A stretch of 11,166 nucleotides of DNA from Thermoplasmata archaeon (GTDB taxonomy: Archaea; Thermoplasmatota; Thermoplasmata; Halarchaeoplasmatales; Halarchaeoplasmataceae). The stretch covers positions 1 to 11,166 of the forward strand of contig JAFDTP010000056.1 in the NCBI GenBank assembly GCA_019594195.1, given 5' to 3'. The notes under the pieces are model-generated. The model saw nothing but the letters and a program-made list of their open reading frames with translations, did no database searches and had not been told where the DNA came from. Below are positions 1 through 11,166 of the stretch, one piece after another; the first letter of the stretch is position 1, and the number at the start of each line of letters is the position of its first letter. Both the position numbers and the translations under genes were made by a program.

Positions 1-453
1 GACTACGTGAAGAAACTCATCTCTGTCTATAGGGCACCCGTGAACCTTGTAGTCAACATCGATAACCGCGTCGATACCTTTGGCCTTCTCCCAAGCCTCG
101 TACATATCACCGTCATCGTCGTACACTCGTTCTTTGACTTTATTGAAGTTCTGCCGATTCCTTATGGAATTGACTCCGCCGATAGTAGCGCATGATCCTA
201 TAGCAACGACTGTATCAGCGTTCTTCCTTATCTTCCTTAACCTTTCCACGTCATGATCTCTCGTGACTGAACCTTCGATGAAAGCTATGTCATAATCATC
301 GCTGTGTTCGGTCATCACTTCTCTAAAGCTGACTGGCTCTACGATGTCGAGTAAGTCTAGAAGTTTTTCTTCTAGATTCGCGACCTGAAGCTGATCTCCT
401 TCGCATCCAGCAAAATCGAAGAATGCAACTTTTGGCTTTGTCTGCGGTTTCAT
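1..453 (-). CDS. hydD: Group 3b [NiFe] hydrogenase small subunit (sulfhydrogenase delta, HydD), 3' part missing
   Basis: The first 151 codons are present; the C-terminus lies beyond the window edge. The small subunit carries the iron-sulfur relay that passes electrons between the NiFe site of HydA and the HydB/HydG module in a cytosolic hydrogenase. The N-terminus reads FAGCEGDQLQ (residues 14-23), then IAFIEGSV, AIGSCATIGG with ligand C88, and KVHGCP with ligand C140. This is the order of the NiFe small-subunit proximal-cluster domain, and spacing and wording resemble Pyrococcus HydD. The usual proximal motif CxGC is here C17-E-G-D20, so one expected cysteine ligand is aspartate. The ATG follows the hydG stop codon with no gap, and a GGAGG site lies inside the end of hydG, so the two genes are translationally linked. 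The missing part should hold the medial and distal cluster cysteines. Family assignment is secure; the electron acceptor is inferred from the family. Confidence 0.92.
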   Translation of the reverse strand, partial: MKPQTKPKVAFFDFAGCEGDQLQVANLEEKLLDLLDIVEPVSFREVMTEHSDDYDIAFIEGSVTRDHDVERLRKIRKNADTVVAIGSCATIGGVNSIRNRQNFNKVKERVYDDDGDMYEAWEKAKGIDAVIDVDYKVHGCPIDRDEFLHVV

Positions 454-1305
454 CTATAACGCCTCCTCGAAACCTTTGATCACATCGTAATTGAATACAG
501 GACCATCTTGACAGGCATAGAATTCACCTTTGTCGCCGGTTATCTGACAATGGCCGCATTTTCCTACACCGCACTTCATCCTTCTCTCCAAAGAAAGATA
601 GATGCTATCATGAGGTAGGTCTTTATCCTCCAATTCTTGCAGCACGAAACGATACATGACCGGAGGACCACAAACTATAGAGTAGGTGTTCTCTAAATCT
701 ATATCTACACCCGGTATGAGATTTGTGATAACTCCAACGTTTCCTTCCCAACAAGCATCGTCCGGACATTCATCGACTGTCTCTCTGATATCGATATCGT
801 CTCTTTCTCTCCATGTATTTATTTCATCCTCGTATAGCTGCTGGCATGGTTCCTGGCAGCCGTATAGCACTTTGACATCTCCGAATTCGGATCTCCTATC
901 CAAAGTGTACTTGATGAGTGATCTTAAAGGTGCGATACCGAGACCACCCGCTATAAATAGCATATCATTTCCCTTCAATTCTTCTACTGGGAATCCTTTT
1001 CCAAATGGACCTCTGATACCTATCTTGTCGCTAGCGGTCATACGGTGGAGTGCATTGGTTACGTTACCTACCGCTCTTACGCACAGTTCGAATGTGTTTC
1101 CTTCTTTAGTCGGGGAAGAACTAACGGAGATCGGAGCTTCACCAACACCGGGAACGGTCAACTCAACGAATTGTCCTGGATCATGACCCAGTTCTTCTCC
1201 ACTGTCTAATTCAACAGTATACAGTTTTTCTTTTTCAGTCAGTTTTTCCACTTTCAATATCGTTGCTTTTTCAGGTAAATAAATCGATTCTTCAGTTACG
1301 CTCAT
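454..1305 (-). CDS. hydG: Group 3b hydrogenase FAD/NAD(P)H reductase subunit (sulfhydrogenase gamma, HydG)
   Basis: This 283-residue protein is a ferredoxin-NADP reductase-like subunit that exchanges hydride between FAD and NAD(P)H for the cytosolic group 3b hydrogenase. An FAD-binding beta-barrel covers roughly residues 8-105, with GEAPISVSSSP at 55-65 where the family binds flavin and RAVGNVT at 77-83. The nucleotide-binding domain has AGGLGIAPLRSL (119-130) and CGPP (212-215). The C-terminal [2Fe-2S] motif is C245-x4-C250-x2-C253-x11-C265, as in HydG and dihydroorotate dehydrogenase PyrK-type subunits. Length fits the family. The ATG overlaps the hydB TGA by 4 bases (ATGA), and a strong AAGGAGGGG site lies just upstream (1311-1319), which fixes the start. 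NADPH preference is known for Pyrococcus homologues; it cannot be read from this sequence. PyrK-like function is unlikely given the hydB and hydD neighbours. Confidence 0.95.
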   Translation of the reverse strand: MSVTEESIYLPEKATILKVEKLTEKEKLYTVELDSGEELGHDPGQFVELTVPGVGEAPISVSSSPTKEGNTFELCVRAVGNVTNALHRMTASDKIGIRGPFGKGFPVEELKGNDMLFIAGGLGIAPLRSLIKYTLDRRSEFGDVKVLYGCQEPCQQLYEDEINTWRERDDIDIRETVDECPDDACWEGNVGVITNLIPGVDIDLENTYSIVCGPPVMYRFVLQELEDKDLPHDSIYLSLERRMKCGVGKCGHCQITGDKGEFYACQDGPVFNYDVIKGFEEAL

Positions 1306-2635: not shown

Positions 2636-2659
2636 CGAACCGCTTAATTAAGCGGTTCG
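2636..2659. promoter_or_regulatory. Perfect 24-bp palindrome, candidate operator
   Basis: The half CGAACCGCTTAA is followed directly by its exact reverse complement TTAAGCGGTTCG, with no mismatch and no spacer; the flanking pair (2635/2660) does not match, so the symmetry ends sharply. It lies 11 bp downstream of the TATA box, over the predicted transcription start of the hox-type operon and about 28 bp before the hoxE ATG. In archaea, repressors bound here typically block RNA polymerase recruitment. A homodimeric helix-turn-helix regulator is the likely ligand; a 5' RNA hairpin is less likely, because transcription probably starts inside the element. Confidence 0.7.
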
Positions 2660-2687: not shown

Positions 2688-3146
2688 ATGGAAAGGCATC
2701 ATCTGCGGGATATACTCCCGATAATAGAGGAATACGAAAAAGAGTCCGGGAGCTTGATACCGGTACTTCACGAGGTACAAAAGAAGATAGGCTATCTGCC
2801 TAAAGAAGTCCAACAGTTCATAGCCGAGGAATTGGGTGTTTCTTTCAGCCAGGTATACTCCGTAGTGACGTTCTACTCTTTCTTCTCTATGGAGCCTAAG
2901 GGGGATCACACCATATCCGTCTGCACTGGAACCGCTTGCTACGTGAAAGGTGCCGATGAACTGGTGGAAGAGTTGAAAGATGAACTAGATGTTGAAGAAG
3001 GAGGAACTTCCGATGATCGTAAGTTTACACTGACCACGAGTAGATGCGTAGGCGCCTGCAGTAAAGCTCCCGTTATGATGATCGACGACGAAGTATATGG
3101 AAAGCTCAAACCGGATGAACTGTCTGATATATTGAAGAGGTATTAA
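2688..3146 (+). CDS. hoxE: NuoE/HoxE-type [2Fe-2S] subunit of NAD-linked [NiFe] hydrogenase (HydC-like)
   Basis: This 152-residue thioredoxin-fold ferredoxin is the NuoE homologue of the diaphorase module and partners the flavin subunit encoded next. The N-terminal helical part (1-70) carries the family wording LHEVQKKIGYLPKEVQ and VVTFYSFF. The [2Fe-2S] ligands are C79-x4-C84-x35-C120-x3-C124 in SVCTGTACYVKG and SRCVGAC. Length and spacing fit NuoE, HoxE and HydC of bifurcating hydrogenases. It opens the plus-strand operon, with an AAGGAGTG site 7 bases before the ATG, and the next gene follows after 13 bases. Sequence alone does not separate HoxE from HydC; the C-terminal ferredoxin domain in the following gene favours the HydC-like role. 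Confidence 0.95.
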   Translation: MERHHLRDILPIIEEYEKESGSLIPVLHEVQKKIGYLPKEVQQFIAEELGVSFSQVYSVVTFYSFFSMEPKGDHTISVCTGTACYVKGADELVEELKDELDVEEGGTSDDRKFTLTTSRCVGACSKAPVMMIDDEVYGKLKPDELSDILKRY

Positions 3147-3159
3147 AGAGGGGTATAAC

Positions 3160-4962
3160 ATGCCGAGAAAAGAGATATTGATATGTGCCGGGACGGGTTG
3201 TCTGTCCGCAGGCGCTGAGGAAATAGAAGAAAGATTGATGGATGAACTTTGGGAGCACGGGCTGGAAGATAGGTATCCTGTAAAGAGAGTTATCAAGAAA
3301 ACGGGATGCATGGGTCCCTGCAACAAAGGTCCTATGATGATAATACAGCCGGAAAATACTTTTTACGGTAACCTCGAACCTTCTGATGTTGAAACTATAG
3401 TGGAGGAACATCTGATAAATGACAGGGTCGCTTTCAACCTTTTAGTGGACGGCGAAGACGGCAAAAAGGTCGAAAAGTTCCAGGAACTAGATTTCATCCA
3501 GGGTCAAAAGAAAGTGGTCATGAGGAACTCGGGCGATATAGATCCAAGCAGTATCGAGGATTATCTGAATCAGGACGGGTATAGAGGGGCTAAAAAAGCA
3601 GTTACAGATATGGAAAAAAAGGAGATAATAGAAGAAGTAAAAGAGTCCGGCCTCCGAGGTAGAGGTGGTGCTGGATTTCCAACAGGTCTTAAGTGGGAAT
3701 TCACCGCTAACGAAGATGCCGATCAGAAATACGTCGTCTGCAACGGCGACGAAGGAGACCCGGGTGCTTTCATGGATAGGAGTATCCTTGAAGGTGACCC
3801 GCACAGCGTCATAGAAGGTATGATGATAGCGGGCTACGCTGTCGGAGCAGATCAAGGTTACATCTATGTAAGAGCTGAGTATCCTCTCGCTATCAGAAAT
3901 CTACAAAAAGCTGTCAGAGATGCAGAGAGCGAAGGATATCTCGGGGAGAATCTTTTCGGGACAGATTTCGACTTTGACGTAGAAGTGAGGGTCGGTGCTG
4001 GAGCATTCGTTTGCGGTGAAGAGACCGCGCTTTTATCATCCATAGAAGGTAAACAGGGCAGGCCAAAATACAGACCGCCGTATCCAGCTACCGACGGTCT
4101 GTGGGGTCAGCCGACAGTTATCAACAACGTAGAGACCTTCGCGAACGTAACCCCGATAATACTCAACGGTTCCGAGTGGTTTGACCAGATAGGAACAGAA
4201 GATAGCTCAGGAACAAAGGTCTTCGCGGTCGCTGGTGACGTAGAAGAGACCGGGCTTGTCGAAGTACCGATGGGGACGACCATAGAAGAGATGATCGAAC
4301 TAGCCGGCGGCGTTGCCGAAGGAGAGGACTTCAAAGCGGTACAGATAGGAGGTCCGGCCGGCGGAACGATACCTGAAAAATACGTCGATCTACCTATAGA
4401 CTACGACTCTTTAGAAGAAGCTGGAACCATAATGGGTTCCGGAGGTTTCATCGTTTTAGACAAGAATAACTGCATGGTAGACGTGGCGAGATTCTTCTTG
4501 GATTTCACTCAAGAGGAGTCCTGTGGTAAATGTCCTCCCTGCAGACTAGGATCAAAGAGGATGTTGGACCTACTCGATAAGATGACCCAGGGCGAAGCTG
4601 AACCTGGAGATATAGAGAAGTTGGAAGACCTAGCTCACACTGTGAAAGATACATCGTTCTGCGGTCTGGGCCAGGCGGCTCCGAATCCTGTGTTGAGTAC
4701 TCTTAGATTTTTCCGAGAAGAGTACGAAGCACACGTTCACGACGATGAATGTCCCGCTGGTCAATGTAAAGCTCTCATGGACTCTTACGTGATCGATGAA
4801 AATAAATGCGTTACTTGTGGTAAATGCGCCGAAGTTTGCCCTGTAGATGCTATTTCCGGCGGAGAAGAATCTTACTTGATAGATGCTGAAACCTGTATTT
4901 CTTGCGGCGAGTGTGCTGAAGTTTGCCCTGTAGATGCGATCTCACAGGGAGGTGAAGAATGA
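3160..4962 (+). CDS. hoxF: NuoF/HoxF-type FMN and NAD(H)-binding subunit with N-terminal [2Fe-2S] and C-terminal 2x[4Fe-4S] domains (HydB-like)
   Basis: This 600-residue flavoprotein is where NAD(H) meets FMN in the soluble hydrogenase complex. In order: a thioredoxin-like [2Fe-2S] domain (C9, C14, C50, C54); the NuoF core with the glycine-rich loop GLRGRGGAGFPTGLKW (164-179), NGDEGDPGAF (195-204) and GAGAFVCGEETAL (279-291); the N3-type [4Fe-4S] site C455-x2-C458-x2-C461 and C501; a linker with H525, H527, C531 and C536; and two ferredoxin motifs, C550/C553/C556/C560 and C579/C582/C585/C589. The C-terminal ferredoxin is absent from cyanobacterial HoxF and typical of HydB of electron-bifurcating hydrogenases, where the His/Cys linker is reported to hold zinc. 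GAGGGG lies 6 bases before the ATG. Bifurcation is inferred from architecture. NADP-reducing HndC-type subunits share this layout and remain an alternative. Confidence 0.95.
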   Translation: MPRKEILICAGTGCLSAGAEEIEERLMDELWEHGLEDRYPVKRVIKKTGCMGPCNKGPMMIIQPENTFYGNLEPSDVETIVEEHLINDRVAFNLLVDGEDGKKVEKFQELDFIQGQKKVVMRNSGDIDPSSIEDYLNQDGYRGAKKAVTDMEKKEIIEEVKESGLRGRGGAGFPTGLKWEFTANEDADQKYVVCNGDEGDPGAFMDRSILEGDPHSVIEGMMIAGYAVGADQGYIYVRAEYPLAIRNLQKAVRDAESEGYLGENLFGTDFDFDVEVRVGAGAFVCGEETALLSSIEGKQGRPKYRPPYPATDGLWGQPTVINNVETFANVTPIILNGSEWFDQIGTEDSSGTKVFAVAGDVEETGLVEVPMGTTIEEMIELAGGVAEGEDFKAVQIGGPAGGTIPEKYVDLPIDYDSLEEAGTIMGSGGFIVLDKNNCMVDVARFFLDFTQEESCGKCPPCRLGSKRMLDLLDKMTQGEAEPGDIEKLEDLAHTVKDTSFCGLGQAAPNPVLSTLRFFREEYEAHVHDDECPAGQCKALMDSYVIDENKCVTCGKCAEVCPVDAISGGEESYLIDAETCISCGECAEVCPVDAISQGGEE

Positions 4963-6821
4963 TGAGCGAAGTTGAATTGAAAGTGGATGGAGATGTTATC
5001 CCCGCGGAAAAAGGCGAGACCGTACTTTCAGCATGCGAGAGAAACGATATAGAGATACCGACCTTATGTGAACACGATGCTTTAGAGAACGTGATGGCCT
5101 GCCGTTTATGCGTTGTCGAGGTGAATGATGGACAGATAGAGCCCTCTTGCGGGTTAAAAGTCGGAGAAGATATGGAGATAAAGACCCATACCGAAAAACT
5201 TGAGAAATATAGAAAAGTAAATCTCGAGTTGATATATCTCAACGAGAACCATTTCTGCATGTTCTGTGAAAGCGACGGAGACTGCGAACTACAAGACCTT
5301 ATGTGGGAACACGAGATAGACAGTTTCGACTTCCCAAGATCATATCCTGATCTACCTATAGAGGCCTCACACGACTTCTTGATCATAGATAACAACAGAT
5401 GTATAAAGTGCGGTAGATGCATAAGAGCTTGTGAGGAAGTCGTAGGAAACGAAACCCTTGGATTCGGAGGTAGAGGTTTAGATAACAGGATAGTGGCGGA
5501 TACCGATATCCCTTTAGCTGAATCGAGCTGTATCGAGTGTGGGATGTGCCAGCAGGTATGTCCTACAGGCGCTATCTTCAACAAACAGAGCATGTTCAAA
5601 GGTACCAGCAGAGAGTGCGATTCTAAAGAGACCACGTGTTTGGGATGCAGTATAGGATGTGGGACTGAAGTCTACAACCGATCAGGTAATATAGTTGAGA
5701 TAATGGGTACTGATCTAGAAGATGAAAAAGGCGGACAACTATGTAAGATGGGAAGATTCGACCCGGTGATCGAACAAGACGAAAGGATAGATCAGATCAT
5801 AGTTCGTGAAGACGACGAAGAGAAGATATTAGATGAAGAAAAAGGTATAGAAAAAGTAAAAGAAAAGTTGACTGACGCGGATAGGATCAACGCTTTGGCA
5901 AGCGGTAAAACTACCTCCGAAGTACTGGAAAGCCTTGAAAGCGTTATGAAGGAACACGGCGCTCTCTTCGATATCGTAGGGGCTGAAAGGCACAGGATAG
6001 AAAAGGAAGTCATGCGGAGAGTGAACATGATAGAAGGACACCTGATAGATGATATCACCGAAGTGATGAAAGCGGATCATCTTTTGGTGTACGATACATC
6101 CATAGTTGAAACACATCCCGTCTTTGCTTCATTCATAAGAAGAGCCGCCATCAATGGCACGAAACTCATAACTGTAGATACACGTGAAGATAAATTTTGG
6201 AGACACTCTGACATATCTATAAACATTGAATCGCCCAACACGCAGTTGACCAGACTTGTCAACGAGGTGATCAAGGAAGGGGTCGCTTCGATCCAGGATC
6301 TATCTAGGGTCTCTTCGATACTGGGCGGTGTAAAGGTACATCCTGAAGATATAATGACCATCGTTAACCATCTTGAAGAAGATACCTACGATATCATAAT
6401 CCTAGGATCCAAGATGCCCGACAGATGGTCTATCAGACATATCTTCGAACTTGCAAAACTTGAAGGAAGCTATCTTGTCAGTCTGAACAAAGCGGCCAAC
6501 CAGTACTTCAAAGAAGTCGAAACGGAGGAGCTTTATAACAGTCCAGATCTCACTTATATATACGCTTCCGACGAAAAGGACAACGAGCAGATGTTGGAAG
6601 AGGCAGAAAAAGCCGATTACCTGATCGTACAGTCGACTAAAAAGTCTGAACTGACGGAGATGGCGGATATCGTTATCCCTTCCCTGACTATGTTCGAGAG
6701 AGACGGAACGGTAGTTGATATCAATGGAGAAGAAAAAAGATTGGATCGGGTTTTCGATCCAGAACCAGATATCGAATCGGAGGAAAAATTTTTTGAGGAA
6801 CTATCGAAACAGGAGGTGTAA
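4959..6821 (+). CDS. hoxU: NuoG/HoxU-type multi-cluster subunit with degenerate molybdopterin-oxidoreductase-like C-terminus (HydA-like)
   Basis: This 620-residue protein should wire the flavin subunit to the HoxY/HoxH core. The N-terminal [2Fe-2S] ligands are C37, C48, C51 and C64; next comes the H98-C100-C103-C109 [4Fe-4S] site, then two ferredoxin-type sites, C148/C151/C154/C158 and C191/C194/C197/C201. A fifth site, C227-x2-C230-x3-C234-x27-C262, is the Fe4S4 motif of the NuoG/formate dehydrogenase family. Residues 280-620 resemble the tail of NuoG (ADIVIPSLTMFERDGT at 569-584) but are far too short for a complete molybdopterin domain and show no obvious catalytic Cys, so this part is probably structural. 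Cyanobacterial HoxU ends after the ferredoxin-type sites, near 240 residues. The ATG overlaps the hoxF stop by 4 bases; a second ATG at 4962 has better spacing from GGGAGGTG (4947-4954) and may be used instead. Confidence 0.93.
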   Translation: MMSEVELKVDGDVIPAEKGETVLSACERNDIEIPTLCEHDALENVMACRLCVVEVNDGQIEPSCGLKVGEDMEIKTHTEKLEKYRKVNLELIYLNENHFCMFCESDGDCELQDLMWEHEIDSFDFPRSYPDLPIEASHDFLIIDNNRCIKCGRCIRACEEVVGNETLGFGGRGLDNRIVADTDIPLAESSCIECGMCQQVCPTGAIFNKQSMFKGTSRECDSKETTCLGCSIGCGTEVYNRSGNIVEIMGTDLEDEKGGQLCKMGRFDPVIEQDERIDQIIVREDDEEKILDEEKGIEKVKEKLTDADRINALASGKTTSEVLESLESVMKEHGALFDIVGAERHRIEKEVMRRVNMIEGHLIDDITEVMKADHLLVYDTSIVETHPVFASFIRRAAINGTKLITVDTREDKFWRHSDISINIESPNTQLTRLVNEVIKEGVASIQDLSRVSSILGGVKVHPEDIMTIVNHLEEDTYDIIILGSKMPDRWSIRHIFELAKLEGSYLVSLNKAANQYFKEVETEELYNSPDLTYIYASDEKDNEQMLEEAEKADYLIVQSTKKSELTEMADIVIPSLTMFERDGTVVDINGEEKRLDRVFDPEPDIESEEKFFEELSKQEV

Positions 6822-6823
6822 AT

Positions 6824-7363
6824 ATGGCAGAAGATAAAACACGGGTAGCTACAGCCTGTATGTGCGGGTGTTCTGGATGCCACATGTCATTTTTAGATGT
6901 GGATGAATACATCAAAGATCTAGCTGAAGAAGTTGAATTTGTAGCTAGTCACGTGATCATGGACGCTAAAGGGTTCGAAGAAGTGGATATCGGTATACTT
7001 GAAGGAACCATAACTAATGAGGAGAACGTAGAGGTCGCGGAAGAACTGAGAGAAAACTGTGATATACTCGTGGCGTGGGGTGACTGTGCCTGTTTCGGGG
7101 GGATCATGACCATGAGGAACTTTGAGGACGTCGATGAGATATTGGAAGAATGCTACAAAGAGAAGGGTGACGAGAAAAGTGAAATGCCTACGGATGACTC
7201 GATACCCACTCTCACGGAGAAAGCAAAAGGCATCGACGAAATAGTCGAGGTCGATGCTTACATACCGGGTTGTCCTCCTTCGGCAGAACTGATCAAATAC
7301 GGTTTCGAAGAGCTTTTGGAAGGAAGAACACCAAAGCTTGATAAAGATAGGTTGATATATTAG
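6824..7363 (+). CDS. hoxY: Hox-type [NiFe] hydrogenase small subunit (HoxY / HydS)
   Basis: This 179-residue protein is the short, single-domain small subunit of soluble NAD-linked hydrogenases and carries one proximal [4Fe-4S] cluster next to the NiFe site. The ligands are intact: GC16SGC19HMSFLDVDEY, WGDC88ACFGG and IPGC150PPSAE. The wording around these matches cyanobacterial HoxY closely, including GCSGCHMSFLD and LEGTITNEEN. It lacks the C-terminal medial/distal cluster domain of other small subunits, as HoxY does. Two further cysteines (C12, C14) precede the motif. The start is set by AGGAGGTG (6811-6818) five bases before the ATG, two bases after the hoxU stop. Its intact CxxC contrasts with the altered motif in HydD on the other strand. 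Confidence 0.96.
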   Translation: MAEDKTRVATACMCGCSGCHMSFLDVDEYIKDLAEEVEFVASHVIMDAKGFEEVDIGILEGTITNEENVEVAEELRENCDILVAWGDCACFGGIMTMRNFEDVDEILEECYKEKGDEKSEMPTDDSIPTLTEKAKGIDEIVEVDAYIPGCPPSAELIKYGFEELLEGRTPKLDKDRLIY

Positions 7364-7369
7364 AGGTGA
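7362..7369 (+). promoter_or_regulatory. Ribosome binding site that decides the hoxH start
   Basis: AGAGGTGA overlaps the hoxY stop codon and stands 5 bases before the ATG at 7375. The in-frame GTG at 7366 is part of this site and so cannot have it as its own ribosome site. I therefore place the start at the ATG. Confidence 0.75.
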
Positions 7370-7374
7370 AAAAG

Positions 7375-8805
7375 ATGGGAAAAGTAGAAGAGATAAATCC
7401 CGTAACCAGGGTAGAAGGACATGGAAAGATAACTGTACATCTTGATGATGAGGGTGAGGTGGACGAAGCAAGATTTCACGTTACCGAATTCAGAGCTTTC
7501 GAGAAATTCGTTCAAGGCAGAGTTCTTTGGGAGATGCCCGAGATGACTTCAAGGATATGTGGTATATGTCCTGTGAGTCATGAATTAGCGGCTTCAAAGG
7601 CTGGTGATGCATTGGTAGGAGCTGACGTTCCTGAAAGTGCCCACAAGATCAGAGAATTACTCCATATGGGTCAGATACTTCAATCTCACAGTCTGAGTTT
7701 TTTCTACTTATCAAGCCCAGACTTGGTGATGGGTTTCGACGCATCTCCAGAAGAGAGAAATATATTCGGATTACTGAAAGAGGATGAGGAACTTGCCGAT
7801 AGGGGCATAGAACTGAGAAGTTTCGGTCAAAGGATAATAGAGGCTCTCGGTGATAAAAAAGTACATCCTGAGCTGTCCGTTCCCGGCGGTGTCAACAAAA
7901 ACATGGATCGCGAGACAGGCGAAGAACTGCTAGAGAAAACCGACGACCTTATCGCCTATTTGAAAGATACTATCGATGTTTTGAGAGATATCTATGAAGA
8001 TATCGAGGAACAAGTTGAAACTTTTGCCGCCCACTCTACTGGTTATATGGGACTGGTAGATGAAGACGGCGAACTTGAATTTTACGACGGGAAACTGAAG
8101 ATCGTCGATCCACACGGAATAGAATTGGGTGAAGTGAGTCCAGAAAAGTACAAGAATTTGATCGATGAAAGATCACTTGACTGGAGCTACATGAAATTCC
8201 CGTATTACGAAGAGTTGGGCTTCAAGAGAGGAGTGTATAGAGTAGGGCCTCTAGCTAGATTGAACATCATAGAGGGGATCGGAACCGATATTGCCCATGA
8301 GGAATGGGAGAGATATAATGAACTTGGCCGCGGCGAGATAAAAGAAGGACCACTGTTCTATCATTATGCTAGATTGATAGAATGTATACATACTGTTGAA
8401 CGCATCGAAGAACTCCTTAAGGACGAAGATGTATATTCCGGAAAGATTAATGTTCCTACGAAGGCCAAGAATGAAAGAGGCGTCGGCGTCATAGAAGCAC
8501 CTAGAGGCACATTGATCCATGACTATAATTCTGATGAAAATGGTATAATTACCGACGCTAACTTTATAGTCGCGACCGGTCACAACAACGCTGGTATAAA
8601 CAGAAGCATACAGAAAGTTGCTGAGAAATATATCGATGGAGAAGAGATACCTGAAGGAACACTGAACAGATTGGAAGGCGTGGTCAGAGCATACGATCCG
8701 TGTCTATCTTGTTCTACCCATGCGGTAGGAGATATGCCCATGGAAGTCAAGTTGATATCCAGTGATGGAAAAGTTGTAGATAAAAAGACCAAAGATATCT
8801 ACTAA
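7375..8805 (+). CDS. hoxH: Hox-type [NiFe] hydrogenase large (catalytic) subunit (HoxH / HydL)
   Basis: This 476-residue subunit holds the NiFe(CN)2CO active site, which cleaves or forms H2. The N-terminal nickel motif is RIC62GIC65PVSH, and the C-terminal one is DPC443LSC446STH449. RVEGHG (12-17), the region near 115 reading PDLVMGFD, KVHPELSVPGGV and GVYRVGPLARLN are typical of Hox-type large subunits. After H449, 27 residues remain; in the family a nickel-dependent protease removes this tail during maturation, but no protease or hyp gene lies in the window. The chosen ATG gives MGKVEEINPVTRVEGH, the usual short N-terminus, and has a well-spaced ribosome site; a GTG nine bases upstream is less likely. 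It is the last gene of the five-gene operon and is followed by a T-rich terminator. Family assignment is secure. Use with ferredoxin plus NAD(H) is inferred from the partner subunits. Confidence 0.96.
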   Translation: MGKVEEINPVTRVEGHGKITVHLDDEGEVDEARFHVTEFRAFEKFVQGRVLWEMPEMTSRICGICPVSHELAASKAGDALVGADVPESAHKIRELLHMGQILQSHSLSFFYLSSPDLVMGFDASPEERNIFGLLKEDEELADRGIELRSFGQRIIEALGDKKVHPELSVPGGVNKNMDRETGEELLEKTDDLIAYLKDTIDVLRDIYEDIEEQVETFAAHSTGYMGLVDEDGELEFYDGKLKIVDPHGIELGEVSPEKYKNLIDERSLDWSYMKFPYYEELGFKRGVYRVGPLARLNIIEGIGTDIAHEEWERYNELGRGEIKEGPLFYHYARLIECIHTVERIEELLKDEDVYSGKINVPTKAKNERGVGVIEAPRGTLIHDYNSDENGIITDANFIVATGHNNAGINRSIQKVAEKYIDGEEIPEGTLNRLEGVVRAYDPCLSCSTHAVGDMPMEVKLISSDGKVVDKKTKDIY

Positions 8806-8848: not shown

Positions 8849-9574
8849 TTACTCTCCCATCCTTCTATGCCTGTTCTGATATGATCTTATAGCTCGTAGG
8901 AAATCTATCTTTCTGAACCCAGGCCAGTAAACATCTGTGAAATAAAGTTCTGAATAAGCAGATTGCCATAACAAAAAGTTGGATATCCTTTCCTCACCAC
9001 TCGTCCTGAGTATCAGGTCCGGGTCCGGAAAGTCAGAGGTATAAAGTTTATCAGCGAAGACTTGTTCGTTGATCTGGTCTACATCTAACCTCCCATCTTT
9101 CACATCTGCAGCGATCTGTTGTATGCCGTGGATTATCTCTTCTCGCCCGCCATAACCCACGGCGATATTGAAGAAGTAGTTGTCATATCCCTTTGTCTTG
9201 TCCTCTGCGTACCTTATCGCCTCTTTCACATCATTAGGGAGTTTCTCTATATTACCGATGGCTTTTATTTTGATGCCATGCTCATGGACCCTTTCGTCCT
9301 CTGCTGCCTTCCTAAAATTTTTTTTGAATAGGTCCATCAGCTTTTGGACTTCATCTGTATCTCGCTTAAAATTTTCAGTAGAAAAAGCGTAAACAGTCAA
9401 TATCTTTATATCGAGATCAGTACACCAATCAAGCATCTCTTCAAGTTTCTCACGTCCTTTTTCGTGACCAGATTTCTCTTGAAGACCCAGCTCTTTGGCG
9501 AATCTCCTATTCCCGTCCATTATCACCGCTACATGGTAAGGGATGTCATCTCTCTTCTTGATCTCCTTCAACAA
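8849..9574 (-). CDS. uppS: cis-Prenyltransferase, (poly)prenyl diphosphate synthase of the UppS family; start codon uncertain
   Basis: The enzyme adds isopentenyl units in cis to an allylic diphosphate to make the long polyprenyl (dolichol-type) carrier used in archaeal protein glycosylation. Motifs in order are VAVIMDGNRRFA (catalytic Asp and Arg pair), TVYAFSTENFKR, NIAVGYGGREEI and LILRTSGEERISNFLLWQ followed by SELYFTDVYWP, all hallmarks of the family. From the TTG at 9574 it is 241 residues. In-frame codons upstream read AYQAYEKK before LLKEIKK, which looks like the conserved YE..L N-terminus of archaeal homologues, yet no ATG, GTG or TTG occurs in that frame between 9574 and the stop at 9665-9667. 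The real start may be a rare ATA/ATT codon, or an indel may lie in the A8 run at 9575-9582. It is convergent with hoxH and not linked to the hydrogenases in function. Confidence 0.9.
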   Translation of the reverse strand: MLKEIKKRDDIPYHVAVIMDGNRRFAKELGLQEKSGHEKGREKLEEMLDWCTDLDIKILTVYAFSTENFKRDTDEVQKLMDLFKKNFRKAAEDERVHEHGIKIKAIGNIEKLPNDVKEAIRYAEDKTKGYDNYFFNIAVGYGGREEIIHGIQQIAADVKDGRLDVDQINEQVFADKLYTSDFPDPDLILRTSGEERISNFLLWQSAYSELYFTDVYWPGFRKIDFLRAIRSYQNRHRRMGE

Positions 9575-9642
9575 TTTTTTTTCATATGCCTGATAAGCCG
9601 TATCTGATATTGTCTTGGAGATCTCACTAATTTTTAGCCACC

Positions 9643-9681
9643 GGTTTAAAATGAGTACTAAACCCTATAAAAATATATTGG
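9643..9681 (-). promoter_or_regulatory. Possible promoter of the cis-prenyltransferase, with a dyad
   Basis: Read on the minus strand, CCAATATATTTTTATAGGG (9663-9681) offers TATA-like sequence. A start about 25 bp downstream would fall near 9648. The plus-strand dyad GGTTTA (9643-9648) and TAAACC (9659-9664), separated by 10 bases, overlaps this position and could be an operator. Several A+T-rich alternatives exist, so the exact box is uncertain. Confidence 0.35.
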
Positions 9682-9747
9682 AGAACATGGGTCATTTTAT
9701 CATCGATATTTACCAAAAAGGCAAAAAGCCTCGGCTATCATCATAAT

Positions 9748-9785
9748 CATTATATACAGATAGTATTATGGGAAACCAGGTGGTG
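9748..9785 (+). promoter_or_regulatory. Promoter and ribosome site of the serine-biosynthesis pair
   Basis: TTATATAC at 9750-9757 is a TATA box; transcription would begin near 9776-9780, leaving a leader of only about 10 bases. AGGTGGTG (9778-9785) then serves the TTG start at 9789. The ATG at 9768 opens a frame that stops after six codons, so it is not the start. A small hairpin, AGGC-AAAAA-GCCT, lies upstream at 9719-9731. Confidence 0.5.
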
Positions 9786-9788
9786 TAA

Positions 9789-10865
9789 TTGAACCATAAA
9801 AAATTATATATTCCGGGCCCGACGGAAGTAAAAGATGAAGTGATCGAGGCGATGAATGAACCGATGTTCGGCCATCGGATGGAAAAGATGACTGATCTCT
9901 ATACTACGATAGTCGAAGATACTAAAGAGTTTCTGGATACGGACAAACACGTGATAATACTCACAGCATCCGGTACCCAGTACATGGAAAGTACCATACA
10001 GAATCTGGTAGATGATAAGGTTCTGTGTTCCACATGTGGAAGCTTCAGTGAAAGGCAGGCCAACGTTGCGGAAAGACTCGGAAAAGACGTAGATAGATTA
10101 GAATATGATTGGGGGAAAGCGGTAAAACCAGAGGATGTAAGAGAAGCTCTGGAAAAAGACGACTATGATGCATTCACCTGTGTGATGAACGAGACCTCTA
10201 CAGGGGTGAGGAATCCGCTGGAAAAGATCGGAGAAGTTTTGGAAGATTATCCTGACACATTCTTCATAGTAGATGCCATCTCAGCTTTGGGCGGAGACTA
10301 CATAGACATAGATGGAGCTAACATAGATGCGATATATACTTCAGTTCAGAAAGCCTTCGCTATGCCTCCAGGTCTTGCGGTCTGCGTAGTGGATGATGAG
10401 GCCTATCAATACGAAAAAGAAAAAGATTCCTGTTCTTGGTACGGAGGATTCCAAAGAAGCATAGATTACTACAAGAGGAAGGGACAGACCCACTCTACAC
10501 CTGCGATCTCATTGATGCTCGCTTACAGAAAACAGATGAAGAGGATGCTGGAAGAAAGTCATCAAGAAAGAGACAAACGCCATAAGGAGATGGCTGAGTA
10601 CACAAGAGATTGGGCCTATGAACATTTCGACATGTTCCCAGAAGAAGGATATATGTCTCAGACAGTCAGCACAGTAGAGAACACCCAAGGTATAGATGTG
10701 GCGGAAACCATACAAGAAGTAAACGAGAAATACGATCTTGCATTCGCTAACGGCTATGGATCAAAGCTTAAAGAGAAGACATTCAGAATAGGACACATGG
10801 GAGAACATACTGTTGAGGACATAAAAGAATTGACCGACGCTATCGAGGACGTTGCAGGGCTGTGA
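9789..10865 (+). CDS. Class V PLP-dependent aminotransferase, probably for serine biosynthesis (alanine-glyoxylate / phosphoserine type)
   Basis: This 358-residue enzyme belongs to the serine-pyruvate/alanine-glyoxylate aminotransferase branch of class V. The N-terminus KLYIPGPTEV (5-14) binds substrate in the family. TASGTQYMES (59-68) forms the phosphate loop, D162 in VDAISALGGD contacts the pyridine nitrogen, and K188 in SVQKAFAMPPGLA is the PLP lysine. HSTPAI (235-240) and R333 in FRIGHMG are also conserved. Length is normal. The start is TTG, supported by the ribosome site AGGTGGTG. A SerA-type dehydrogenase follows five bases after its stop, which suggests it converts 3-phosphohydroxypyruvate to phosphoserine in place of a canonical SerC. 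A role in glyoxylate or serine catabolism is possible, since substrate cannot be read from the motifs. Confidence 0.9.
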   Translation: MNHKKLYIPGPTEVKDEVIEAMNEPMFGHRMEKMTDLYTTIVEDTKEFLDTDKHVIILTASGTQYMESTIQNLVDDKVLCSTCGSFSERQANVAERLGKDVDRLEYDWGKAVKPEDVREALEKDDYDAFTCVMNETSTGVRNPLEKIGEVLEDYPDTFFIVDAISALGGDYIDIDGANIDAIYTSVQKAFAMPPGLAVCVVDDEAYQYEKEKDSCSWYGGFQRSIDYYKRKGQTHSTPAISLMLAYRKQMKRMLEESHQERDKRHKEMAEYTRDWAYEHFDMFPEEGYMSQTVSTVENTQGIDVAETIQEVNEKYDLAFANGYGSKLKEKTFRIGHMGEHTVEDIKELTDAIEDVAGL

Positions 10866-10870
10866 TAAAC

Positions 10871-11166
10871 ATGGCAAAGAAAGTATTGATATGTAATCCT
10901 GTAGCGGATGAAGCTGTGGATATGTTGGAAGACGCCGGTTTCGAGGTGGACCAGGAATTCGGTATGTCAAAAGAAGAATTGACGGAAAAAGTCCCTCCTT
11001 ATCATGCGATGGTCGTTAGAAGTTCGACAAAGGTCAGAGAGCCAACCATAGATGCCGCTGAGAACTTGAAAGTCATAGGTAGACCGGGCATAGGATTAGA
11101 TAACATCGACTTAGAATATGCGAAAGATAAAGGCATAGCTGTTTATAACACTCCTACAGCCACAAC
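10871..11166 (+). CDS. serA: D-3-phosphoglycerate dehydrogenase, N-terminal part (cut by window end)
   Basis: About 98 codons are present before the window ends. The product is a D-isomer-specific 2-hydroxyacid dehydrogenase that would oxidise 3-phosphoglycerate to 3-phosphohydroxypyruvate with NAD. Visible are the N-terminal substrate-domain strand KKVLICNPVADEA, VVRSSTKV (the R-S-x-T substrate region), and KVIGRPGIGLDNIDLEYAKDKGIAVYNTPTA, the characteristic run into the NAD-binding domain (written here as family wording; residues about 65-97). The catalytic Arg, Glu and His lie beyond the window, as would any ACT-type regulatory domain. The ATG lies five bases after the aminotransferase stop, so the two are co-transcribed. 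SerA is preferred over other hydroxyacid dehydrogenases because of this neighbour. Confidence 0.88.
   Translation, partial: MAKKVLICNPVADEAVDMLEDAGFEVDQEFGMSKEELTEKVPPYHAMVVRSSTKVREPTIDAAENLKVIGRPGIGLDNIDLEYAKDKGIAVYNTPTAT

Follow-up and report, generated by a model that had tools for sequence, protein, structure and literature searches.

A predicted bifurcating NiFe-HydABCSL hydrogenase operon in a probable halophilic Thermoplasmatota

Introduction

Bifurcating hydrogenases determine the amount of H2 that a fermenter is able to give off. The NiFe-HydABCSL enzyme is defined in the accessible part of PMC8880783, with the enzyme of Acetomicrobium mobile (structures 7t2r and 7t30), and archaeal NiFe-Bfu hydrogenases have already been reported from Halorhabdus genomes (PMC9304861). 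As far as the available portion of PMC9304861 goes, it names archaeal NiFe-Bfu solely on genome evidence, and its purified archaeal Bfu enzyme is of another type, Nfn-Bfu. Here we analyze an 11,166-nucleotide stretch of DNA (contig JAFDTP010000056.1; the whole stretch is called the window below) that carries a five-gene hydrogenase operon, hydC-hydB-hydA-hydS-hydL, at 2688-8805. It is probable, judging from its sequence, that this operon encodes a cytoplasmic NiFe-HydABCSL (Type 3 NiFe-Bfu) hydrogenase, which we predict to be bifurcating. To the known cases it adds a host that is probably a halophilic Thermoplasmatota, an origin that is likely mosaic, an alanine in the flavin loop and a head-to-head group 3b partner.

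Hydrogenases have been described from Thermoplasmatota before. In its accessible part, PMC11287216 reports metagenome-assembled genomes (MAGs) of hypersaline Thermoplasmatota from Great Salt Lake with group 3b, 3c and 4d hydrogenases in two groups and 3c together with 4d in two others; the 3c enzyme is read as Mvh working with Hdr, and its role is called not clear in the latter two groups. Sulfhydrogenase, Mvh and Hdr genes are reported from another Thermoplasmatota class in what is available of PMC12220078. Among the literature matches listed, no title or abstract opening names HydABCSL for Thermoplasmatota.

Results

The five open reading frames (ORFs) of the operon are all intact and on the plus strand, with spacings of 13, -4, 2 and 2 bases between successive genes.

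2688..3146, plus strand: hydC, 152 amino acids (aa), NuoE/HoxE-like, with the [2Fe-2S] cluster C1 (from Pfam 2Fe-2S_thioredx and PDB matches)
3160..4962, plus strand: hydB, 600 aa, with N-terminal [2Fe-2S] cluster B5, a flavin mononucleotide (FMN)/NAD site, [4Fe-4S] cluster B1, a His-coordinated B2 site and a C-terminal two-cluster ferredoxin domain B3/B4
4959..6821, plus strand: hydA, 620 aa, NuoG-like, with clusters A1-A5 and without an H-cluster domain
6824..7363, plus strand: hydS, 179 aa, short [NiFe] small subunit with room for the proximal [4Fe-4S] cluster S1 only
7366..8805, plus strand: hydL, 479 aa, [NiFe] large subunit, GTG start

The assignment to the NiFe-HydABCSL type is made because the best PDB matches, the comparison of ligands and the trees agree. 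The A. mobile complex 7t2r is the best solved match for HydA, HydS and HydL, and is level with FeFe-HydABC for HydB and HydC. HydA matches 7t2r_A at 282.4 bits with a runner-up at 169, HydS matches 7t2r_E (166 bits) ahead of MvhG (147) and HoxY (126), and HydL matches 7t2r_D (544 bits) ahead of HoxH (422) and MvhA (382). For HydB the two top chains are nearly equal, 7t2r_B at 776.8 bits and 7q4v_B of FeFe-HydABC at 776.1, and for HydC they are the FeFe-HydC 7q4v_C (146.9 bits) and the A. mobile HydC 7t2r_C (143.6 bits).

The Pfam domains of HydB follow the order 2Fe-2S_thioredx (N-terminal), Nuo51/FMN, SLBB, NADH_4Fe-4S and a C-terminal Fer4 dicluster. We aligned its ligands with those of the A. 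mobile HydB, two FeFe-HydB and three HoxF (from Acaryochloris, Lichenicola and Cupriavidus). In A. mobile numbering, the window HydB has Cys 438, Thr 476, His 525, Cys 531 and Cys 536 at the B2 site, and according to the available text of PMC8880783 position 476 may be Cys or Thr, so that the B2 site of the family is complete. The three HoxF are without the residues at 438, 525, 531 and 536 and without the C-terminal dicluster domain. Counting the window protein, C438, H525, C531 and C536 are retained in 118 of the 120 best HydB rows, and in all 10 rows of the archaeal HydB clade. The two exceptions (P0171 and P0200) are relatives of 533 aa, 65-67% identical, that have neither the B2 ligands nor the dicluster domain; they are HoxF-like truncations, yet are placed inside the HydB clade.

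AFM, Phe282 and GGPSG are named as motifs distinct in bifurcating hydrogenases in the part of PMC8880783 at hand. The window HydB has AFM and Phe282, and its GGPSG is replaced by GGPAG. The alanine, at A. mobile position 400, occurs in 10/10 rows of the window's HydB clade and in none of the other 110 of the best 120 rows, which have Ser, and this Ser-to-Ala change is a clade-specific mark. The three motifs together are weak evidence, because a cyanobacterial HoxF shares them all; nor do they define the family, since in addition L018, a bacterial locus with a fused HydB, has GGPLG at the loop. L018 keeps C438, H525, C531 and C536, so the flavin-loop Ser is not strictly needed to keep the B2 branch. 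Cyanobacterial HoxF is not known to be bifurcating. One set of cyanobacterial Hox genes, L024 (2421-7623), is plasmid-borne in Acaryochloris sp. 'Moss Beach'; its HoxF has AFM, Phe282 and GGPSG as in bifurcating HydB and is without most of the B2 ligands and without the dicluster domain.

The remaining subunits carry the features of the same family. HydA has the Pfam domains Fer2, NADH-G_4Fe-4S, Fer4 dicluster, Molybdop_Fe4S4 and a molybdopterin-fold domain; in alignment it shares the Cys/His motifs A1-A5 with residues 1-335 of the A. mobile HydA. No [FeFe] catalytic-domain family is among its 16 Pfam matches, and the best Foldseek matches of its predicted structure (mean predicted local distance difference test score 74.4) are 7t30_A and 7t2r_A. 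A formate dehydrogenase or a fragment of complex I was considered for this gene and ruled out by these sequence and Foldseek matches and by the hydS and hydL genes that follow. HydC (Pfam 2Fe-2S_thioredx) has the four Cys of a CxxxxC...CxxxC motif that are kept in HoxE and two bacterial HydC, and HydS (Oxidored_q6) has four Cys common to HoxY and bacterial HydS; at 179 aa it equals 7t2r_E in length. HydL (NiFeSe_Hases) has the nickel-site motifs RICGICP at residue 63 and DPCLSCSTH at residue 444, with a C-terminal extension past the last His. The motifs for clusters other than B2 are assigned as ligands from their usual patterns together with conservation. On this basis, Cys/His motifs for all 12 clusters of the A. 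mobile enzyme are found in the window proteins; the accessible text of PMC8880783 gives residue numbers for B2 only.

Most of what the initial annotation had proposed for the operon is borne out by these comparisons: the five-gene operon itself, the HydB domain order of bifurcating hydrogenases, the long NuoG-like subunit, and a HydABCSL enzyme rather than HoxEFUYH, to which the trees below also speak. Its description of the small and large subunits as a Hox-type core needs a correction, the core not being plain Hox-type: the nearest solved relatives are the A. mobile HydS and HydL. The best NCBIfam models are VhuG for HydS (148 bits, cut-off 450) and VhuA for HydL (420 bits, cut-off 800), both far below the cut-offs.

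Trees were built for HydB, HydL and HydA. The quick trees drew on part of the best 120 relatives of each protein, and for the careful trees these rows were reduced from 75 to 28 for HydB, from 86 to 33 for HydL and from 49 to 23 for HydA; the groups used in the approximately unbiased (AU) tests were defined once the quick trees had been made. In the HydL tree, five Thermoplasmatota-type rows group together at 100/100, within a 17-row clade (100/99) that also contains Bipolaricaulota, Halorhabdus, Halapricum, Halococcoides and Hadarchaeia rows. A 98/97 branch splits the archaeal rows from proteobacterial HoxH, and the AU test rejects a tree that joins them to three proteobacterial HoxH (p 6.5e-7). 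A Bipolaricaulota group is the candidate sister with support of 84/57, and the Bipolaricaulota rows form a group of their own at 100/98. A grouping of the Thermoplasmatota HydL with the full set of seven halo/Hadarchaeia rows passes the test (p 0.41); one with three haloarchaeal rows is rejected (p 2e-5), by a constraint that cut through a clade. One HydL-like row labelled Thermoplasmata, P0059, sits with Chloroflexi rows outside the window's clade and may be another transfer or a binning error. In the HydA tree the window groups at 100/100 with P0257 and P0259 (source name Acetothermia).

HydL and HydA are thus placed with halophilic archaea and/or Bipolaricaulota, and HydB is placed elsewhere. 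Its archaeal clade (100/100) is nested in a 12-row clade (100/100) whose other named members are one Bacillota MAG and one Bacteroidales MAG. Because of this HydB tree, and because Halorhabdus and Bipolaricaulota are missing from the best 120 HydB relatives (most of which have no source name), the enzyme is likely a mosaic, with anaerobic bacteria as the source of HydB and perhaps of HydC, and a halophile pool as that of HydA, HydL and perhaps HydS. A transfer from anaerobic bacteria, as had been suggested at first, is supported for HydB by its tree; for HydA and HydL the direction could be either.

The host is probably a halophilic Thermoplasmatota. In the window's clade a source name is given for 2 of the 10 other HydL rows, for 2 of the 9 HydB rows and for 3 of the 15 HydA rows, and every one of these names is Thermoplasmata or Thermoplasmatota; the archaeal setting of the initial annotation is likely to this extent, resting on seven of 34 relatives. 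The window proteins are acidic (isoelectric point 4.1-5.8; 4.8 for HydL vs 6.4 for the aligned part of the A. mobile HydL), as are the proteins of salt-in halophiles.

Upstream of hydC, head to head with the operon, lies part of a group 3b hydrogenase operon on the minus strand (1-2342), separated from it by a gap of 345 bases (2343-2687).

1..453, minus strand: group 3b delta (small) subunit, first 151 residues, leaving the window; NCBIfam sulfhyd_HydD 102.5 bits, Pfam Oxidored_q6
454..1305, minus strand: group 3b gamma subunit, HydG-like, FAD/NAD(P)-binding, 283 aa; PDB best 9nez_C (sulfhydrogenase 1 gamma), 222 bits
1302..2342, minus strand: group 3b beta subunit, HydB/AsrA-like, ATG at 2342; PDB best 9nez_B (sulfhydrogenase 1 beta), 190 bits
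2617..2624, plus strand: TATATATA, TATA-box-like, lying some 64-71 bases upstream of the hydC ATG (motif scan)
2636..2659, no strand: perfect 24-bp palindrome CGAACCGCTTAATTAAGCGGTTCG, candidate operator (gap scan)

Beta and gamma are complete and delta is partial; alpha would fall outside the window. The beta start was set at 2342, with the NCBIfam ShyB/HydB match opening at residue 83-84 of the long ORF; the mechanical ORF, which runs to 2597, is too long. Gamma has the Pfam domains FAD_binding_6, NAD_binding_1 and DHODB_Fe-S_bind, and sulfhyd_HydD is the best of 10 NCBIfam families that match the delta fragment. The consecutive order of beta, gamma and delta is that of the group 3b sulfhydrogenase 9nez, although the similarity to it is moderate only and alpha is not seen in the window.

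Within the gap, TATATATA may be an archaeal promoter element, and CGAACCGCTTAATTAAGCGGTTCG follows about 12 bases downstream of it. The palindrome is the sole perfect one in the window with arms longer than 7, and arms of at least 11 were obtained in 7 of 20000 first-order Markov draws of the gap stretch 2346-2687. Its position near the expected transcription start suggests that it is a repressor site.

On the other side, the flank at 8849-11166 holds a polyprenyl diphosphate synthase (uppS, minus strand), a class V aminotransferase (plus) and the first part of a SerA-like phosphoglycerate dehydrogenase gene (plus). At third codon positions the GC content is 0.39-0.50 in the hydrogenase genes, a range that includes the values of uppS (0.47) and the aminotransferase (0.46), so the operon seems established in this genome. 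The plasmid comparison of the window gave no near match, and the Rfam scan gave no match at gathering scores.

Related loci with the same gene order were found in bacteria, in genomes from the phylum group of a Deltaproteobacteria MAG. The order C-B-A-S-L is present directly in L019, L020 and L023, and with one small ORF between C and B in L018; L021 has the same extra ORF and hydA in two ORFs, while the short contig L022 shows just S and L. HydB in L018, L019, L020, L021 and L023 is 1039-1056 aa long, and its C-terminal part in the two that were scanned, L018 and L020, matches GltD-like NAD(P)-binding proteins, which may link such bacterial enzymes to NADPH. In L001 (2-5693, a Deltaproteobacteria MAG) a GltD-like ORF is followed by HydA-like, HydS-like and HydL-like genes and by an ORF that resembles a maturation protease, as judged by eye.

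Discussion

The window operon has the same five subunits in the same domain order as the A. mobile NiFe-HydABCSL, as far as the latter is described in the available part of PMC8880783, and shares with it the B2 site and C-terminal dicluster of HydB, a long HydA with the A1-A5 motifs and a short HydS. From FeFe-HydABC it differs in that catalysis is predicted to be done by HydS and HydL and that HydA has no [FeFe] catalytic domain, although HydB and HydC are as similar to those enzymes (7q4v, 8a6t) as to A. mobile's. The archaeal NiFe-Bfu of Halorhabdus (BfuB clade 19 in the accessible portion of PMC9304861) is halophilic like the window's probable host, and its HydL is about 60% identical to the window HydL and lies in the same 17-row clade. 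No Halorhabdus protein is among the best 120 relatives of either HydB or HydA, most rows having no source name, so its partner subunits are presumably less alike or of different length.

There are several points that weigh against a simple view of this enzyme as a bifurcating one of the A. mobile kind. A motif named for bifurcating enzymes is altered in its HydB, and the Acaryochloris HoxF has the complete set. HydB and HydC stand equally near to FeFe-HydABC, and grouping with A. mobile alone is rejected both for HydB (by 164 log-likelihood units, p 3e-58) and for the archaeal HydL (p 2e-16). For these reasons the window enzyme is neither simply descended from nor simply sister to the A. mobile enzyme that has been characterised, on the basis of matches and trees, and it also differs by Thr for Cys at 476, by Ala for Ser in GGPSG and by a HydA of 620 aa vs 692. 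Additionally, the ligands of HydS and HydC were aligned with relatives and not with the A. mobile chains. As to novelty, this is not the first archaeal NiFe-Bfu.

One concern is whether the contig is archaeal at all. It could be bacterial, for example from Bipolaricaulota, with the Thermoplasmata labels of its relatives being binning errors; most of those relatives carry no source name, MAG labels can err as P0059 illustrates, and HydB is nested among bacterial rows. All seven source names agree, however, the Bipolaricaulota HydL rows are separate, and the TATATATA element precedes hydC, so we think this unlikely.

A second alternative is a NAD-linked Hox hydrogenase of group 3d (HoxEFUYH) with no ferredoxin coupling, in which the extra domains are leftovers. 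The E/F/U/Y/H subunits are homologous, among solved structures HoxH ranks second for HydL, and over residues 6-528 HydB has 51% identity to the Acaryochloris HoxF, with which it also shares FMN-loop motifs. A HoxF that ends after B1, a short HoxU and a HydL inside the HoxH clade are the marks of that group and none of them is seen here: HydB has the B2 ligands and the two-cluster C-terminal domain that the three HoxF are without, HydA is 620 aa long vs 234-239 aa in three HoxU, and HydL is kept out of the HoxH rows by the AU test. On the HydB ligands and dicluster and the AU test on HydL a plain Hox complex was rejected, and these results speak against all subunits falling in a plain NAD-reducing Hox clade, the outcome that the initial annotation had named as fatal to its proposal; this alternative is quite improbable.

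The alanine of the flavin loop raises a third possibility, that of a HydABCSL-like complex whose tight bifurcation has been lost in this clade and which is now linked to ferredoxin or to NAD. The restriction of GGPAG to the 10 archaeal rows would fit this. The same 10 rows keep their B2 ligands, though, and so does the bacterial L018 with Leu at the site, which makes such a change of function very doubtful.

A group 3c Mvh/Vhu-type hydrogenase working with heterodisulfide reductase is very improbable, an Mvh-Hdr complex being rejected on the NCBIfam scores well below the cut-offs and on the higher A. mobile matches of HydS and HydL, even though VhuA and VhuG are the best models and MvhG the second-best PDB relative of HydS: HydS is 179 aa vs 299 aa for the long three-cluster MvhG, and neither hdr nor mvhD is among the listed ORFs of at least 80 aa in this window of only 11 kb, where three diaphorase-type genes occupy their place.

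If the NiFe-HydABCSL assignment is right, HydL would split or form H2 at its NiFe site, and electrons would pass from S1 through A3, A2, A1 and B1 to the FMN in HydB, where hydride would be exchanged with NAD(H). Low-potential electrons would run through C1 of HydC and then B2, with its His ligand, before reaching the ferredoxin-like B3/B4 domain and finally ferredoxin. This pathway is taken from the A. mobile enzyme as given in the accessible part of PMC8880783. In a fermenting cell the enzyme would most likely act as a confurcating H2 producer, NADH + 2 Fdred + 3 H+ <-> NAD+ + 2 Fdox + 2 H2, and the reaction would be reversible at high H2. The neighbouring group 3b enzyme could add NADP(H), in which case H2 would link three electron pools.

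We put forward a wider reading tentatively, as possible rather than probable. It holds that this is a bifurcating hydrogenase of a halophilic Thermoplasmatota whose HydASL module is common to halophilic archaea and Bipolaricaulota and whose HydBC core, carrying the alanine of its clade, came from anaerobic bacteria; that the group 3b enzyme is co-regulated with it, H2 equilibrating NADH, NADPH and ferredoxin; and that some of the group 3c Mvh reported from MAGs of this kind is the bifurcating enzyme. With regard to the last point, some of the group 3c calls in the accessible part of PMC11287216 may be HydABCSL, since VhuA is the best NCBIfam model for the window HydL.

If real, the locus would make a second archaeal group with NiFe-Bfu, and the NiFe module may have had a history separate from that of the bifurcating HydB core. 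The GGPSG motif of the flavin loop could also be tested in it on a natural variant. Group calls that are based on the catalytic subunit only might misassign a HydL of this kind as group 3c, the methanogen-type Mvh.

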